Origin: Proteinivorax tanatarense
GTDB taxonomy: Bacteria; Bacillota; Proteinivoracia; Proteinivoracales; Proteinivoracaceae
Direction of reading: 5' to 3'
Length of the DNA stretch: 64,000 bases
Assembly: GCF_040267685.1 (NCBI RefSeq)
Contig: NZ_CP158367.1
Coordinates: forward strand, 2,480,001 to 2,544,000
Positions within the stretch are counted from its first letter, which is position 1. Every line of letters begins with the position of its first letter. Below, piece after piece: positions 11,514 through 64,000 of the stretch. Made by a program: the position numbers and the translations under genes. A model generated the notes under the pieces. That model had not been told where the DNA came from. It saw nothing but the letters and a program-made list of their open reading frames with translations, and ran no database searches.

Positions 11514-11639
11514 TTGCATTTCCTCCAATCTTCCAAATAAAATGAACCTTCCATCAGGAGTTCCCTCCAGCTAATTGTTAGTCAAATTAACCGGACTTAT
11601 TAGTAACTGTGAGCATATATAGATCAATTTACACAAAAA

Positions 11640-11960: not shown

Positions 11961-12111
11961 AATCCTATTTTCACTTCCTTCCTTATATAACCACGCCAAA
12001 ACCAGACACCTAACTAAATAAGCTTAATTCAATAACTCTGCTGATTGTTAGGCCAATCCACTAGAGCATTTTTATATCCCCTAAACTGTTGATGGGGTTG
12101 CCCTCCTGCGA

Positions 12112-12153
12112 TAAAACCACCCTACTTAGTATCACTTAGTAGGGTGGTTTTAT
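12112..12153. terminator. Hairpin between YitT and PadR genes
   Basis: AAAACCACCCTACT pairs with AGTAGGGTGGTTTT. On the minus strand it lies just after the PadR promoter, so besides ending the YitT transcript it could attenuate the PadR operon. The loop repeats the TACTTAGTA words of the neighbouring dyad. Confidence 0.65.
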
Positions 12154-12205: not shown

Positions 12206-13054
12206 TTATATTGTACGACTAAATCCTTCACCAGTAACTTCATGAACAACACCTACTGTTATAAATGCTTTTGGGTCAACATTGTTTACAAACTTCTTTA
12301 TTTTAACATACTCTTTTTTGTTTACAACTGTATTGATAATCTCTTTTTTACCTTTGGAGAAACCACCGTCAGCATAATAAACAGTACAACCTCGATCTAA
12401 CGTATTGATAATAAAATCGTTAATTTGTAAACTTTTATTACTTATGATATAAATATTCATTTTTTTATTTATTCCCTGTATAACATTATCAATGACAAAA
12501 GCATTAAGGATTACTCCTAACATAGCATACATGCCTAAAGTTGCCCCAAAGGAAATTCCAGCTAAAAACACAATAATGAAATCAGACAATAGTAATGCTT
12601 TGCCTATTTCAAGATGAAAATACTTATTAATTATTTTTGCTACAATATCCGTTCCCCCAGTTGATGCATTCTGATAAAAAATTATTGCCATACCTACTCC
12701 TTGTATAAGAATTCCATATATCAGATTGACCATTAGATCCTCTACCAAAGCTTTTTCCATAGGCGTAATAACTTCAAATAAATAAATCATTATAGACAAC
12801 AAAAAGCTTGCATAAATGGTATAGCCACCAAAGTCTCTCCCAATTATGATAAAGGCTAGAGTAAATAATATTAAATTGGAAACTATCATAACAACACCTA
12901 TTGGAATAACTGGAAAAGCATTGTTAATTACCATTGCTAATCCTGTTACACCACCTACCGCTAAATCTGCTGGTATAAGAAAATAATATAGTCCTATCGC
13001 CATGACCAATACACCTAAGTTTATCAATGCAAAGCGCTTTAGATCACTCCTCAT
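12206..13054 (-). CDS. YitT family membrane protein (DUF161 + DUF2179)
   Basis: 282 residues. About six membrane segments in the first ~200 residues include the family motifs GGVTGLAMV and STGGTDIVAKIINKYF, followed by the soluble C-terminal DUF2179 domain (INTLDRGCTVYYADGGFSKG, then VDPKAFITVGVVHEVTGEGF). Start ATG 13054 has GGAGGTG upstream; the in-frame ATG at 13069 overlaps that site and is rejected. Transport function is proposed for the family but the substrate is unsettled. A cobalamin riboswitch stands 323 bp upstream but two terminators intervene. Confidence 0.9.
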   Translation of the reverse strand: MRSDLKRFALINLGVLVMAIGLYYFLIPADLAVGGVTGLAMVINNAFPVIPIGVVMIVSNLILFTLAFIIIGRDFGGYTIYASFLLSIMIYLFEVITPMEKALVEDLMVNLIYGILIQGVGMAIIFYQNASTGGTDIVAKIINKYFHLEIGKALLLSDFIIVFLAGISFGATLGMYAMLGVILNAFVIDNVIQGINKKMNIYIISNKSLQINDFIINTLDRGCTVYYADGGFSKGKKEIINTVVNKKEYVKIKKFVNNVDPKAFITVGVVHEVTGEGFSRTI

Positions 13055-13224
13055 AATCCACACCTCCACATATCAATGGGGTTACCTTCCCCCGCTGATT
13101 GTTAGTTATCAAAATACGTTGAAGCTAAAGTGCTACGTACTAATACCTGCCAAATCTTCCTAAATTAATAGCATTTGATTAGTAAATGTAAAGAAAAGCA
13201 AACTGAAAGTTACCTTTAACTCCC

Positions 13225-13297
13225 AAAAAATAAACCCAGCCATTTGCTGAGTTATCACATCTCCATAAATAAAAAAACCTTCCTAAAAAGAAAGGGC
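13225..13297 (-). terminator. Two tandem terminator hairpins downstream of the B12 riboswitch
   Basis: On the minus strand, CCTTTC/GGAAGG with a short loop followed by seven T (13272-13297), then CTCAGC/GGCTGGG with AAAT loop followed by TTTATTTTTT (13225-13251). They close a transcript of about 250-300 nt that begins at the riboswitch. Confidence 0.65.
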
Positions 13298-13376
13298 ATT
13301 ATTAGTAGGTAGAATAAAGAATATCCTACACGTAAATAACACCTCCTCATCCTCGTGAGTAATTAACAGCATTGTT

Positions 13377-13542
13377 ACTATTGGCAGGTCTCCTGACTTA
13401 GGAAATAACGATTCTTATAACCTTCCCATATCTATGATACAGTGGTGTTCATAAGATTCTATCCATCACAGTGGCGGGACCGTGTCGGTATTTCACCGAA
13501 CTTCCCTTTTAAGCAAATATAAATAAAATTTGCACCAATAGT
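13377..13542 (-). promoter_or_regulatory. Cobalamin (B12) riboswitch
   Basis: The minus strand contains the conserved elements in order: the P1 strand ACTATTGG and GGTGC, AAAAGGGAA, the CGGTGAAAT/ACCG hairpin, ACGGTCCCGCCACTGTGATGG (B12-box core), and the 3' end AAGTCAGGAGACCTGCC followed by CCAATAGT, which pairs perfectly with the 5' strand. This is a class-I/II adenosylcobalamin aptamer. No B12-related gene follows; see findings. Confidence 0.93.
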
Positions 13543-13735
13543 CCTTATATTCAGTTTTTAACCAACCATAGTCTATCACTAAAGTTATTTATTGTCAATA
13601 AAATAACGTTGGGAGTAATTTTTTCCCTAAACAATAAAACCTAAATTTCAACAATTTAAGCACTAGCTCCGCCAACTTTTATTTATTAGCTGTAGTTTTT
13701 CTAGAGAATTTTTATTGCTGTTTATCTCAAGTTGT

Positions 13736-59080: not shown

Positions 59081-62000
59081 AGATCACCCCCGCTTGCGCG
59101 GGAAAGACAGATCAAATTAGAGCATCAGAAGAATTCCAAGAGGATCACCCCCGCTTGCGCGGGAAAGACATACACCGAATCCTAAAGTATGACTTAACCA
59201 TGGGATCACCCCCGCTTGCGCGGGAAAGACTTTAGGGGCGTTTCTGTTCCCGCGTTGTTATAGGGATCACCCCCGCTTGCGCGGGAAAGACTTGACTGAT
59301 GTATTGAGCATTGTTTTAGCGTTGGGATCACCCCCGCTTGCGCGGGAAAGACCCATTTCTCCTGTAGAATACCATTTGTAAATCAGGATCACCCCCGCTT
59401 GCGCGGGAATGACTCAAAACAGCTTGCCCTTCTGGCATACTTTCAAGGATCACCCCCGCTTGCGCGGGAAAGACCCCTCTCACCGAGATTGTTGAAATTG
59501 TTACTAGGGATCACCCCCGCTTGCGCGGGAAAGACAGATTGTTTCATCTCTGCGTCTAGGGAGTACAGGGATCACCCCCGCTTGCGCGGGAAAGACCAGA
59601 AAAAGCTTTTGAAATGATGCCATATTTTGGGATCACCCCCGCTTGCGCGGGAAAGACATAGGCGAAACCTTCATTATTAGCTTGTATGTAGGATCACCCC
59701 CGCTTGCGCGGGAAAGACCGAGCATGTAGGAGGGCGGGGAACCCCTGTTTAGGATCACCCCCGCTTGCGCGGGAAAGACTAAATTCCTTTATGATAACAA
59801 ATTGACCCGGCAGGATCACCCCCGCTTGCGCGGGAAAGACCTTGATACAGCTTTTGATAGTTTTGAAAGGGAGGGATCACCCCCGCTTGCGCGGGAAAGA
59901 CCAGCCGCAAAAGCATAACAGGAATGTCACTAGGGGATCACCCCCGCTTGCGCGGGAAAGACTGACCCTAGCTTGGGGAAACAATGCAAATCAAAGGATC
60001 ACCCCCGCTTGCGCGGGAAAGACATCCAATGAACACATCAAGGATTCCTATGATTAGGATCACCCCCGCTTGCGCGGGAAAGACGTCTACAAAGTTTACA
60101 GTTGTTGTAGCTTCACAGGATCACCCCCGCTTGCGCGGGAAAGACCCTTTAAATGAAACCATTCCATTTTCATCAATAGGATCACCCCCGCTTGCGCGGG
60201 AAAGACTTTCTACCAAAAAATCATAGAATAGGCTTGATGGGATCACCCCCGCTTGCGCGGGAAAGACGGCGTCATTGCTAACGTTGATTTTCCGCATGAG
60301 GGATCACCCCCGCTTGCGCGGGAAAGACGTAGGACTGTAATAAGAACCACGTCAAACAAAGGGATCACCCCCGCTTGCGCGGGAAAGACTGTATATAAGT
60401 CTCGCCATTTCCTCTGTGGCTAGGATCACCCCCGCTTGCGCGGGAAAGACACTCCCCGAAGCGGCAAAACAACAGCAGGAGTAGGATCACCCCCGCTTGC
60501 GCGGGAAAGACTCTGTGACTTGGAAATTTTCGGGGATAGTGATGGGATCACCCCCGCTTGCGCGGGAAAGACTGTCATCCCACGAAAACCACTTTTCTCC
60601 GTCTGGGATCACCCCCGCTTGCGCGGGAAAGACTATCATTTCATCTACAATATCTCGAATCTCCCAGGATCACCCCCGCTTGCGCGGGAAAGACTGTTGA
60701 GCTTCTTGCACTTGCTGATTACTGCCAGGATCACCCCCGCTTGCGCGGGAAAGACTGCATCCTGATTCAAATATTGAATTTGTACTTAGGATCACCCCCG
60801 CTTGCGCGGGAAAGACGATGAGGTTGGCAAACTAGCAGAGAGCTTTGTAGGATCACCCCCGCTTGCGCGGGAAAGACAATATTTGACACACAAGAAGAGC
60901 ATGAACGAGCAGGATCACCCCCGCTTGCGCGGGAAAGACAGCACAAAAGAAAATAAGTGCAAGACAAGCTAAGGATCACCCCCGCTTGCGCGGGAAAGAC
61001 AACGATGGCCCATTTAAGGACCAAATGAAACAGGGATCACCCCCGCTTGCGCGGGAAAGACGTACATGACATTTAGCAGCGACTATCTATTTGCGGATCA
61101 CCCCCGCTTGCGCGGGAAAGACCAGGTTTCCCTCCTTTCAGCCTGGGTCATTTTAGGATCACCCCCGCTTGCGCGGGAAAGACTTTTCCAGCCGACTTCT
61201 ATAATGCCTATATCCAGGATCACCCCCGCTTGCGCGGGAAAGACTGCGCCAACTGTCGCAGGATTGAAAAAGTATTAGGATCACCCCCGCTTGCGCGGGA
61301 AAGACCAGAACAGATGGTTACAAATCAAGGGGATGTAGGGATCACCCCCGCTTGCGCGGGAAAGACTAGCGGCATAGGAGTTATACAAAATGCCTGGTAG
61401 GATCACCCCCGCTTGCGCGGGAAAGACAGAAGCAATAGTTAAAAGGATATACTCTTTATAGGATCACCCCCGCTTGCGCGGGAAAGACTGTCATACCTTC
61501 TACGTCTGCCTGTGCTGCTTGGGATCACCCCCGCTTGCGCGGGAAAGACATACAAATTCAAAAGTACCTTTCAGCCAATTAGGGATCACCCCCGCTTGCG
61601 CGGGAAAGACAGAGAAAAGTAATATTCCCAAAGGAGTATTAAAGGATCACCCCCGCTTGCGCGGGAAAGACCGACATTTTAATTAACAAAGGTTTGGAAA
61701 GTTGGGATCACCCCCGCTTGCGCGGGAAAGACAAAATTAAAGGGGTGATAGTATGTTAGAGTTTAGGATCACCCCCGCTTGCGCGGGAAAGACTCTCATT
61801 CATTTTTGCGACAAATTTCGACTTTTAGGATCACCCCCGCTTGCGCGGGAAAGACTCAGTTCCTGGGGCCAATCTAAAATCAAACTCAGGATCACCCCCG
61901 CTTGCGCGGGAAAGACGGTAGCTGCAACGAACAAGGCCATATATCACAGGGATCACCCCCGCTTGCGCGGGAAAGACGCTGCTGGTGCTACCGGTGCTGC

Positions 62001-62221
62001 TATGTTTGCAGGATCACCCCCGCTTGCGCGGGAAAGACTAAGACAAAAAGACAGCGGTTTTCAGCTTGTCAGGATCACCCCCGCTTGCGCGGGAAAGACA
62101 ACGCTTACTTCCTTTATCGAACAAGAGTTTTAGGATCACCCCCGCTTGCGCGGGAAAGACTTAAGCCATGAAGCATGACCAGAAGCACCAGCGGGATCAC
62201 CCCCGCTTGCGCGGGAAAGAC
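59081..62221 (-). CRISPR. Type I-E CRISPR array, about 52 repeats and 51 spacers
   Basis: 28-bp repeats at a 61-bp period; in the reading direction (minus) they start GTCTTTCCCGCGC, continue AAGCGGGGGTG and end ATCC, with the GC-rich palindrome CCCGCGCAAGCGGG. Spacers are mostly 33 bp. Orientation is set by the I-E consensus ending GTGATCC and by the cas1-cas2 genes to the right. The oldest (left) end has variants: the first repeat reads AGATCAC instead of GGATCAC and the sixth GGGAATGAC instead of GGGAAAGAC. All others look identical. I saw no repeated spacer. Confidence 0.97.
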
Positions 62222-62244: not shown

Positions 62245-63147
62245 CTATTCTTTATTTATTATTTTTAAAAATTTGTTCACTTTGGTCGATAATTGATAAA
62301 TAAGTTTGGCATCTGCTAAAGCTCTGTGAGGTACTCTATCCCCTATTTTATAAGCTGATAAAACAGTATCTAATTTATAATTTTTAAGATTTATTTTTTC
62401 TCTTTTGACAAATTTATTCAAATCAAAAACCTTATTAGTTAGGATTTGCATGTTTGATTCACTTAATGTCCTATTTAAAAAGCGAAGATCAAAATCTACT
62501 TCAAATCCAACTAAATCGAAGTCCTCTATAAAATCAATAAATTCCTTTAATCCTCGCTCCATTGATATACCTTCTTTTTCTAACAACTTCTGAGTTATGC
62601 CGGTAAGTTTGGTAATTTCTGCTGGTATATTTTTTTCGTATTCGATCAGTCGCTGAAAGTGCGAAATTTTATCACCTTCAGCTTTAACTGCCCCAATTTC
62701 AATGATTTGATTTTCTTTATAATTCAACCCATCCGTCTCTATATCAATTACTACATAATTAAGACTTTCTATTGGACCCTTTGCTTTTGGAGCAAATTTC
62801 TTTGCTTTCCGAAATTTTGCCGCATTACTATATCCCTTCTTATGTTCATTTTCTTCTATAACCTGATTTATTTTAGGTAATGCTACTAGTGGGATGCCAT
62901 CATATTCAACAACTTGTCGCTGAGCATTTAACGTTTCAAAATGATACCCTATTTCATTTTGAATGGCATAGCTCATTGTCGCTTCACCAGTACTAGAACT
63001 TTGAACAACTCGCTCCCAAAGTTGTGCGCGAATTTTCGTATTAAAGTTTCCTACATAAACACCTGTTGCAATCTCTTGCATCCATTTGCTTAAGTCACCC
63101 CGAAGTGAAGGCGGAACCTTTTTCAAAGTGATTACAGTAAGTGGCAT
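62245..63147 (-). CDS. cas2: Cas2e fused to a DnaQ-like DEDDh exonuclease
   Basis: 300 residues. Residues 1-95 are Cas2e (MPLTVITLKKVPPSLRGDLS, KWMQEIATGVYVG). After a basic linker, residues ~128-295 form a DEDDh 3'-5' exonuclease: Exo I VVIDIETDGL, Exo II VGFEVDFDLRFLN, Exo III HRALADAKLIYQL. Such fusions are known in type I-E systems (for example Streptococcus thermophilus), where the exonuclease trims prespacer ends for Cas1 integration. It starts 2 bp after the cas1 stop and ends 23 bp before the first repeat. Confidence 0.95.
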   Translation of the reverse strand: MPLTVITLKKVPPSLRGDLSKWMQEIATGVYVGNFNTKIRAQLWERVVQSSSTGEATMSYAIQNEIGYHFETLNAQRQVVEYDGIPLVALPKINQVIEENEHKKGYSNAAKFRKAKKFAPKAKGPIESLNYVVIDIETDGLNYKENQIIEIGAVKAEGDKISHFQRLIEYEKNIPAEITKLTGITQKLLEKEGISMERGLKEFIDFIEDFDLVGFEVDFDLRFLNRTLSESNMQILTNKVFDLNKFVKREKINLKNYKLDTVLSAYKIGDRVPHRALADAKLIYQLSTKVNKFLKIINKE

Positions 63148-63149
63148 CG

Positions 63150-64000
<851 letters not shown>

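Follow-up and report, generated by a model that had tools for sequence, protein, structure and literature searches.

Cobalamin riboswitches can control RNAs that are not messages. EutX, of the Rli55/EutX type, is shortened by B12, and the EutV site is thereby absent, as set out in a part of PMC5821096. Sections of PMC3369931 and PMC8934654 describe the ANTAR motif as a pair of hexaloops, each carrying A at its first position and G at its fourth. AspocR of Listeria, a subject of PMC8079631, is a promoter-driven RNA with a full-length RF00174 aptamer. Rli55 and AspocR were named as precedents in a sequence-only reading of a 64,000-nucleotide stretch of the Proteinivorax tanatarense genome (the window), which placed a complete cobalamin riboswitch with no B12 gene behind it at 13377-13542. 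A lost gene and, listed last, a B12-controlled YitT were given as alternatives.

The aptamer matched the Rfam cobalamin model RF00174 at 13554-13366 on the minus strand (116.4 bits, E 1.7e-28), covering model positions 1-189, which is all 189, and scoring above the gathering score of 31.5 bits over the whole model. The claim of completeness therefore held; the span first given lies within the riboswitch but is slightly short. The source genome (3.09 Mb, one contig) contains six cobalamin riboswitches, with scores from 131.4 to 101.8 bits. As the window aptamer ranks third of the six, it has no sign of decay. The other five precede a methyltransferase/oligopeptide-type transporter cluster, hemA, cobT, cbiA, and btuF (names by sequence reading). 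Upstream of the window aptamer is a promoter-like site, TTGACA-17-TAGACT, with an extended -10 (TG before the second hexamer; 13570-13598, minus strand, as are all features below unless stated), identified by consensus match alone. A phage origin for the unit was rejected, as blastn against a phage collection gave no match and a 33-base core had no exact match in viral contigs. The window element is an ordinary riboswitch class in an unusual position.

Folding predicted an expression platform next to the aptamer. The 3′ strand of a P13 hairpin, CUCA[CGAGGA]UGAG (13346-13359, -2.9 kcal/mol, loop in brackets), overlaps the 5′ strand of a putative antiterminator, GAGGAGGUGUUAUU (13335-13348). The antiterminator 3′ strand, AAUAAUGCCCUUUC (13290-13303), overlaps the 5′ half of a terminator, T1 (13278-13295, -7.5 kcal/mol, 7-T tail). 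The antiterminator region folds at -20.4 kcal/mol, with the pairing read from sequence. Since P13 and the antiterminator share one strand, and the antiterminator and T1 share another, the structures are predicted to be mutually exclusive. As modelled, this order is what is usually seen in attenuators that B12 turns off, and a comparable hairpin order occurs in genic riboswitches of the source genome and of its congener, G001. With B12 bound, P13 would keep the antiterminator strand, T1 would form, and the RNA would end near 13270, giving a product of about 290 nt. When B12 is absent, the antiterminator would open T1, and polymerase would continue to a second terminator, T2, which consists of AACTCAGC[AAATG]GCTGGGTT followed by TATTTTTT (13233-13253, -10.0 kcal/mol). 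Transcripts that pass T2 would enter yitT. That two terminator hairpins follow the aptamer had been claimed, and a terminator scan placed both on the same strand, at 13295-13278 and 13253-13233; the 2-kb region contained 5 terminator-like sites, compared to 0.7 in shuffles.

The window unit resembles the other five riboswitches of the genome, which act by attenuation, in its complete aptamer, its order of P13, antiterminator, and terminator, and its promoter-like site. It differs in that no gene lies between T1 and the second terminator and the next gene is yitT, about 224 nt past T1.

Since the source genome encodes EutV and EutW and has an ANTAR leader, the Rli55/EutX idea was worth testing. 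According to this idea, the window encodes a B12-controlled RNA whose long form, made without B12, traps EutV and silences the eut operon. The genome is alone among 13 of its class in encoding an ANTAR protein; by sequence and gene order, this protein is EutV, and its gene stands next to that of a histidine kinase, EutW, in a eut operon. The eut leader carries an ANTAR dual hairpin, GTTGCAC[AACGGC]GTGCAAT and AAGC[GATGAA]GCTT, which is the sole match of the pattern in the genome. In both the Rli55/EutX loci and the window, a cobalamin riboswitch unit lacks a gene of its own and the genome encodes EutV/EutW. In contrast to those loci, the window unit is not at the eut locus but 213 kb from it (2.49 Mb vs 2.28 Mb).

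We scanned the region from 13376 to 13055 for ANTAR-target hairpins and found only two A1/G4 hexaloops with at least 3 pairs, AAC[AATGCT]GTT and TTGGGAGTT[AAAGGT]AACTTTCAG. The first, which is closed by C-G, extends to one P1-type hairpin, TAAC[AATGCT]GTTA, at 13377-13364, for which the background is about 0.005-0.01 per 150 nt of source-genome DNA. However, this lone hexaloop precedes T1 and would thus be present in both RNA forms. The second follows T2 and is closed by U-A, and in the minimum-energy fold both are tetraloops. As positive controls, we examined 15 riboswitch loci from the order of genome G294. Six had at least two C-G-closed A1/G4 hexaloops within 300 nt past the aptamer, and five of these six have EutV in the fetched DNA; eight lacked a hexaloop, and one had a single hexaloop 284 nt away. 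Aptamer scores in the six hexaloop-bearing loci were 29-41 bits, compared to 116 bits in the window, where no hexaloop pair follows the switched terminator. The strict form AC[AANGNN]GT was found within 350 nt of none of 102 riboswitches in EutV-bearing genomes, while looser forms were present at three (AC[ANNGNN]GT) and seven (GC[ANNGNN]GC) of them. Judged against the genomic background and the 15 control loci, the defining hexaloops downstream of the switched terminator are absent, and we rejected an EutV sponge as the best reading. We regard it as very unlikely, and the Rli55 precedent does not carry over to this locus.

Two features of the eut region are of separate note. In the second ANTAR hexaloop of the eut leader, GATGAA (L106:10284-10230), position 1 is G instead of A. 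An IS21-like istAB pair, recognized by eye (L106:10540-12825, at 2.28 Mb of the genome), lies immediately before the eut leader and eutS and may supply or disturb the eut promoter.

The unit shares with AspocR a full-length RF00174 aptamer and an RNA driven by a promoter, and as a self-contained promoter-to-terminator unit without a gene it could produce a B12-controlled antisense or other trans-acting RNA. Unlike at AspocR, there is no opposite-strand gene to silence; the opposite strand downstream bears only a 53-aa ORF, no long complementary match was found in the source genome, and the ends of the two predicted RNA forms are only about 45 nt apart. We therefore rejected the AspocR mechanism, to which we give next to no credence. 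Loci L349, L350, and L355 carry a 294-aa gene (PocR by reading) on the opposite strand downstream of the riboswitch. From this gene we take them to be AspocR loci, probably from Listeria, and the gene name is likewise only probable.

The 320 bp behind the aptamer had been described as free of genes, and we found none before yitT. There is no minus-strand ORF of at least 50 aa between the aptamer and yitT, and the plus strand has one 53-aa ORF (13163-13002), which overlaps the yitT start. Two ORFs of 31 and 32 aa matched no Pfam family at E<=5 and have poor Shine-Dalgarno spacing, and we rejected them as small genes. What the stretch does contain is a Shine-Dalgarno-like stub, by our reading, TATGGAGATGTGATAAC (13251-13267), with no start codon at a usable distance. 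The GGAG of this stub (13264-13261) comes soon after T1 and is followed by TGATAA and T2. This order would fit a riboswitch that once led another B12 gene, now deleted, of which T1, the stub, and the lost gene's terminator, T2, remain, with yitT a mere neighbor. But no coding remnant was found: the best tblastn match between T1 and yitT scored 22.3 bits, a value equalled in 17 of 30 shuffles, and a decayed gene in this stretch was rejected. The lost-gene alternative, which we return to below, is in our view unlikely.

The leader from the switched terminator to yitT is interrupted by T2 at 13253-13233, which is 178 nt from yitT. Within this spacer, we noted by eye a weak promoter-like site for yitT, TTTACA-16-TATTAA (13165-13192), which falls below the rule of our promoter scan. 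Together, T2, the 178-nt spacer, and the promoter-like site suggest that the coupling to yitT may be weakened or broken. T2, which has the appearance of a good intrinsic terminator between T1 and yitT, is the strongest fact against present control.

The yitT leader also includes a hairpin element, AACAATCAGCGGGGGAAGGTAACCCC (13078-13103), with diverged copies elsewhere in the source genome and in G001. Within the window, the first part of this element is repeated at 12040-12051 and 11570-11581. In the btuF leader of the source genome (L011), the distance from riboswitch to gene is about 440 nt, compared to about 80-100 nt in G001, which suggests an insertion.

The yitT gene (12206-13054) encodes a 282-aa protein with a YitT_membrane domain (PF02588, 187.2 bits) and a DUF2179 domain (PF10035, 67.9 bits), both above cut-off, in agreement with its naming as a YitT protein in the sequence-only reading. 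It is followed by an inverted repeat, I4, that is a probable terminator (12111-12153). No NCBIfam model matched the protein, Pfam labels both domains uncharacterised, and the source genome encodes a second YitT that is 35% like the first. We predicted the structure of the window YitT (pLDDT 88). Its DUF2179 domain (residues about 196-282, window 12206-12466) aligned, at Z about 10-11 across 71-86 residues, with 3hlu, itself a DUF2179 structure, and with PII-like proteins such as PstA/DarA and SbtB, hinting at a possible regulatory domain on a membrane protein. As the listed matches span only residues about 190 to 282, the membrane part was barely probed, and we claim no transport fold. In a part of PMC4944035, the DUF2179 domain of YitT is linked to structure 3HLU, and the related YczE proteins are described as membrane proteins of unknown function.

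We searched for other B12 connections of this protein. The 80 nearest YitT loci listed (more exist), obtained with a profile of three sequences, were all scanned with Rfam, which identified seven cobalamin riboswitches in five loci. In four of the 80 (L127, L133, L136, and L173), a cobalamin riboswitch lies on the same strand as yitT and no more than 0.81 kb upstream of it, so that members of the same subfamily stand behind cobalamin riboswitches in other genomes. Given that 27 genomes totalling about 75.9 Mb (rounded sizes) contain 125 riboswitches, about 0.053 would be expected within this limit (Poisson P 3e-7), and 0.16 within the whole 2.5 kb upstream (P 3e-5); because the 0.81-kb limit was set post hoc and the loci share ancestry, both P values are indicative only. 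As the remaining 76 of the 80 have no such riboswitch in that interval, the association is not a general one. No cobalamin riboswitch was found in 29 other YitT loci of the phylum sample (19 + 10; 1.5-kb flanks).

Two of the four loci provide the closest comparisons, as in each a YitT of the same subfamily is preceded by an RF00174 aptamer. In L136 (Clostridium tagluense A121), the aptamer (2147-2334) is followed by a terminator (2405-2430), a Shine-Dalgarno sequence, and then directly by yitT; cbiM and a cbiN-like gene are upstream. Unlike the window, this locus has a single terminator and passes directly into yitT. In L133 (Fusibacter sp. 3D3), a 15-nt stretch at the window P13, ACTCACGAGGATGAG, is also present after the riboswitch, but a truncated sucD of 153 aa separates riboswitch and yitT. 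A BtuC/BtuD-like pair, below NCBIfam cut-offs, is upstream. The window arrangement resembles L127 and L173, in both of which riboswitch and terminator-like hairpin precede a stretch without a recognised gene, 606 and 529 nt long, respectively, and then yitT; the gene-free stretch of L173 contains a RAGATH-18 RNA.

Other loci connect yitT to B12 through gene order. In L135, yitT follows cbiM-cbiN-cbiQ (CbiN and CbiQ named by eye). In the near relatives L139 and L153, it ends a cobU-cobS-AIR-synthase-like-lspA-like-yitT row (CobS and LspA by eye), and in both its start overlaps the preceding gene. It also follows sucC-sucD in L115 and the gene for the succinyl-CoA:acetate CoA-transferase ScpC in L114. 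By riboswitch or by a cob, cbi, or btu gene, seven of the 80 nearest loci listed are linked to B12. When the 29 phylum-sample YitT loci and 29 EutV loci were searched with 17 cob/cbi/btu and succinyl-CoA proteins, neither set gave a match (1.5-kb flanks, vs 2.5 kb for the 80 loci).

Because relatives of the window YitT lie behind cobalamin riboswitches or in cbi/cob operons, we favor a linkage to yitT. Our interpretation, which we hold at a probability of roughly 0.68, is that the riboswitch serves, or once served, as leader to a yitT belonging to the B12 regulon, in a subfamily tied to B12 in several Clostridia. This value combines two parts. Some present B12 control of yitT is quite possible, if short of an even chance; that the leader was uncoupled from yitT only recently is a more doubtful proposition. 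From the sequence comparisons, a B12-regulon yitT with its own leader would be the simplest account that covers the data, and such riboswitch-linked loci make a chance yitT neighbor, as the lost-gene alternative entails, unlikely. The B12-controlled YitT that had been listed last is thus the best supported of the earlier proposals as a present or former linkage, while T2 and the gene's own promoter-like site leave present control open. YitT had also been placed outside the known B12 regulon. Our literature search returned no paper joining YitT with a riboswitch or with "cobalamin riboswitch", and in part of one source YitT and cobalamin co-occur in a proteomics list; as an irrelevant neighbor, though, YitT fits poorly with the loci of its relatives.

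More tentatively, the YitT subfamily, with its DUF161 membrane part and PII-like DUF2179, may be an unrecognised member of the B12 regulon, with the window riboswitch still gating yitT through two serial terminators. If so, these proteins could, for example, be transporters that serve cobalt, a corrinoid, or the succinyl-CoA/methylmalonyl-CoA pathway. Since YitT proteins are common and the window YitT has no assigned function, the B12 context is a concrete, testable functional lead. This lead rests on the repeated occurrence of yitT downstream of B12 riboswitches or of cbiMNQ, within cobU-cobS rows, and adjacent to genes for succinyl-CoA ligase or ScpC. It also carries a warning, in that a seemingly gene-free riboswitch may belong to the next, unrecognised gene.

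To place the protein, we built a quick YitT tree (110 rows, 109 different). The window YitT joined the 80-locus subfamily and was separate from the YitT proteins of its class relatives; L127 and L133 fell together with it in a clade of 17 rows (support 98). The five riboswitch-linked rows were scattered rather than in one clade, requiring 5 changes, and 500 of 500 shuffles were as low, which counts against our reading; with such scatter, the link was gained or lost more than once.

The aptamer has a different nearest relative. Among 122 others compared by local alignment, the closest was the cobU riboswitch of G001 (score 139, listed twice), followed by that of L133 (126.5), and in a tree of 22 aptamers that of the window and that of G001 cobU formed a pair (94/87), under a long-branch warning. 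The G001 riboswitch (L091:6958-7143) lies upstream of cobU within the cob operon. In the source genome, this operon (L103) has no riboswitch there, and the gap directly before cobU is about 55 nt. Since the nearest aptamer is that of G001 cobU and the source-genome cobU lacks one, the window riboswitch may derive from a cob riboswitch of the lineage rather than have traveled with yitT. The sequence likeness would fit such descent as well as co-inheritance with yitT. A cob origin counts against co-inheritance, not against regulation of yitT. The same pattern also favors a leader marooned by the loss of its gene. We looked for a gene at this place in relatives G001-G004, of which G001 is the one other genome of the genus in the sample. 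There was no synteny around the site, which also favors the marooned leader, and the ancestral state thus cannot be read from these four.

Riboswitches with no near gene also occur elsewhere. In the 21 EutV-bearing genomes, 25 of 102 riboswitches (of 105 counted) lacked an ORF of at least 100 aa within 330 nt; by eye, most of these 25 are accounted for by long leaders, by tandem aptamers, or by contigs that were cut. One cobalamin riboswitch, in L266 (G192:C37:312860), has no same-strand ORF of 80 aa within 1 kb. At the far end of the window, ORFs at 60436-62133 contain repeated ITPACAGKT and GSPPLARER motifs, and by eye these ORFs resemble a CRISPR array read as protein, next to cas-like genes at 62245-63932.
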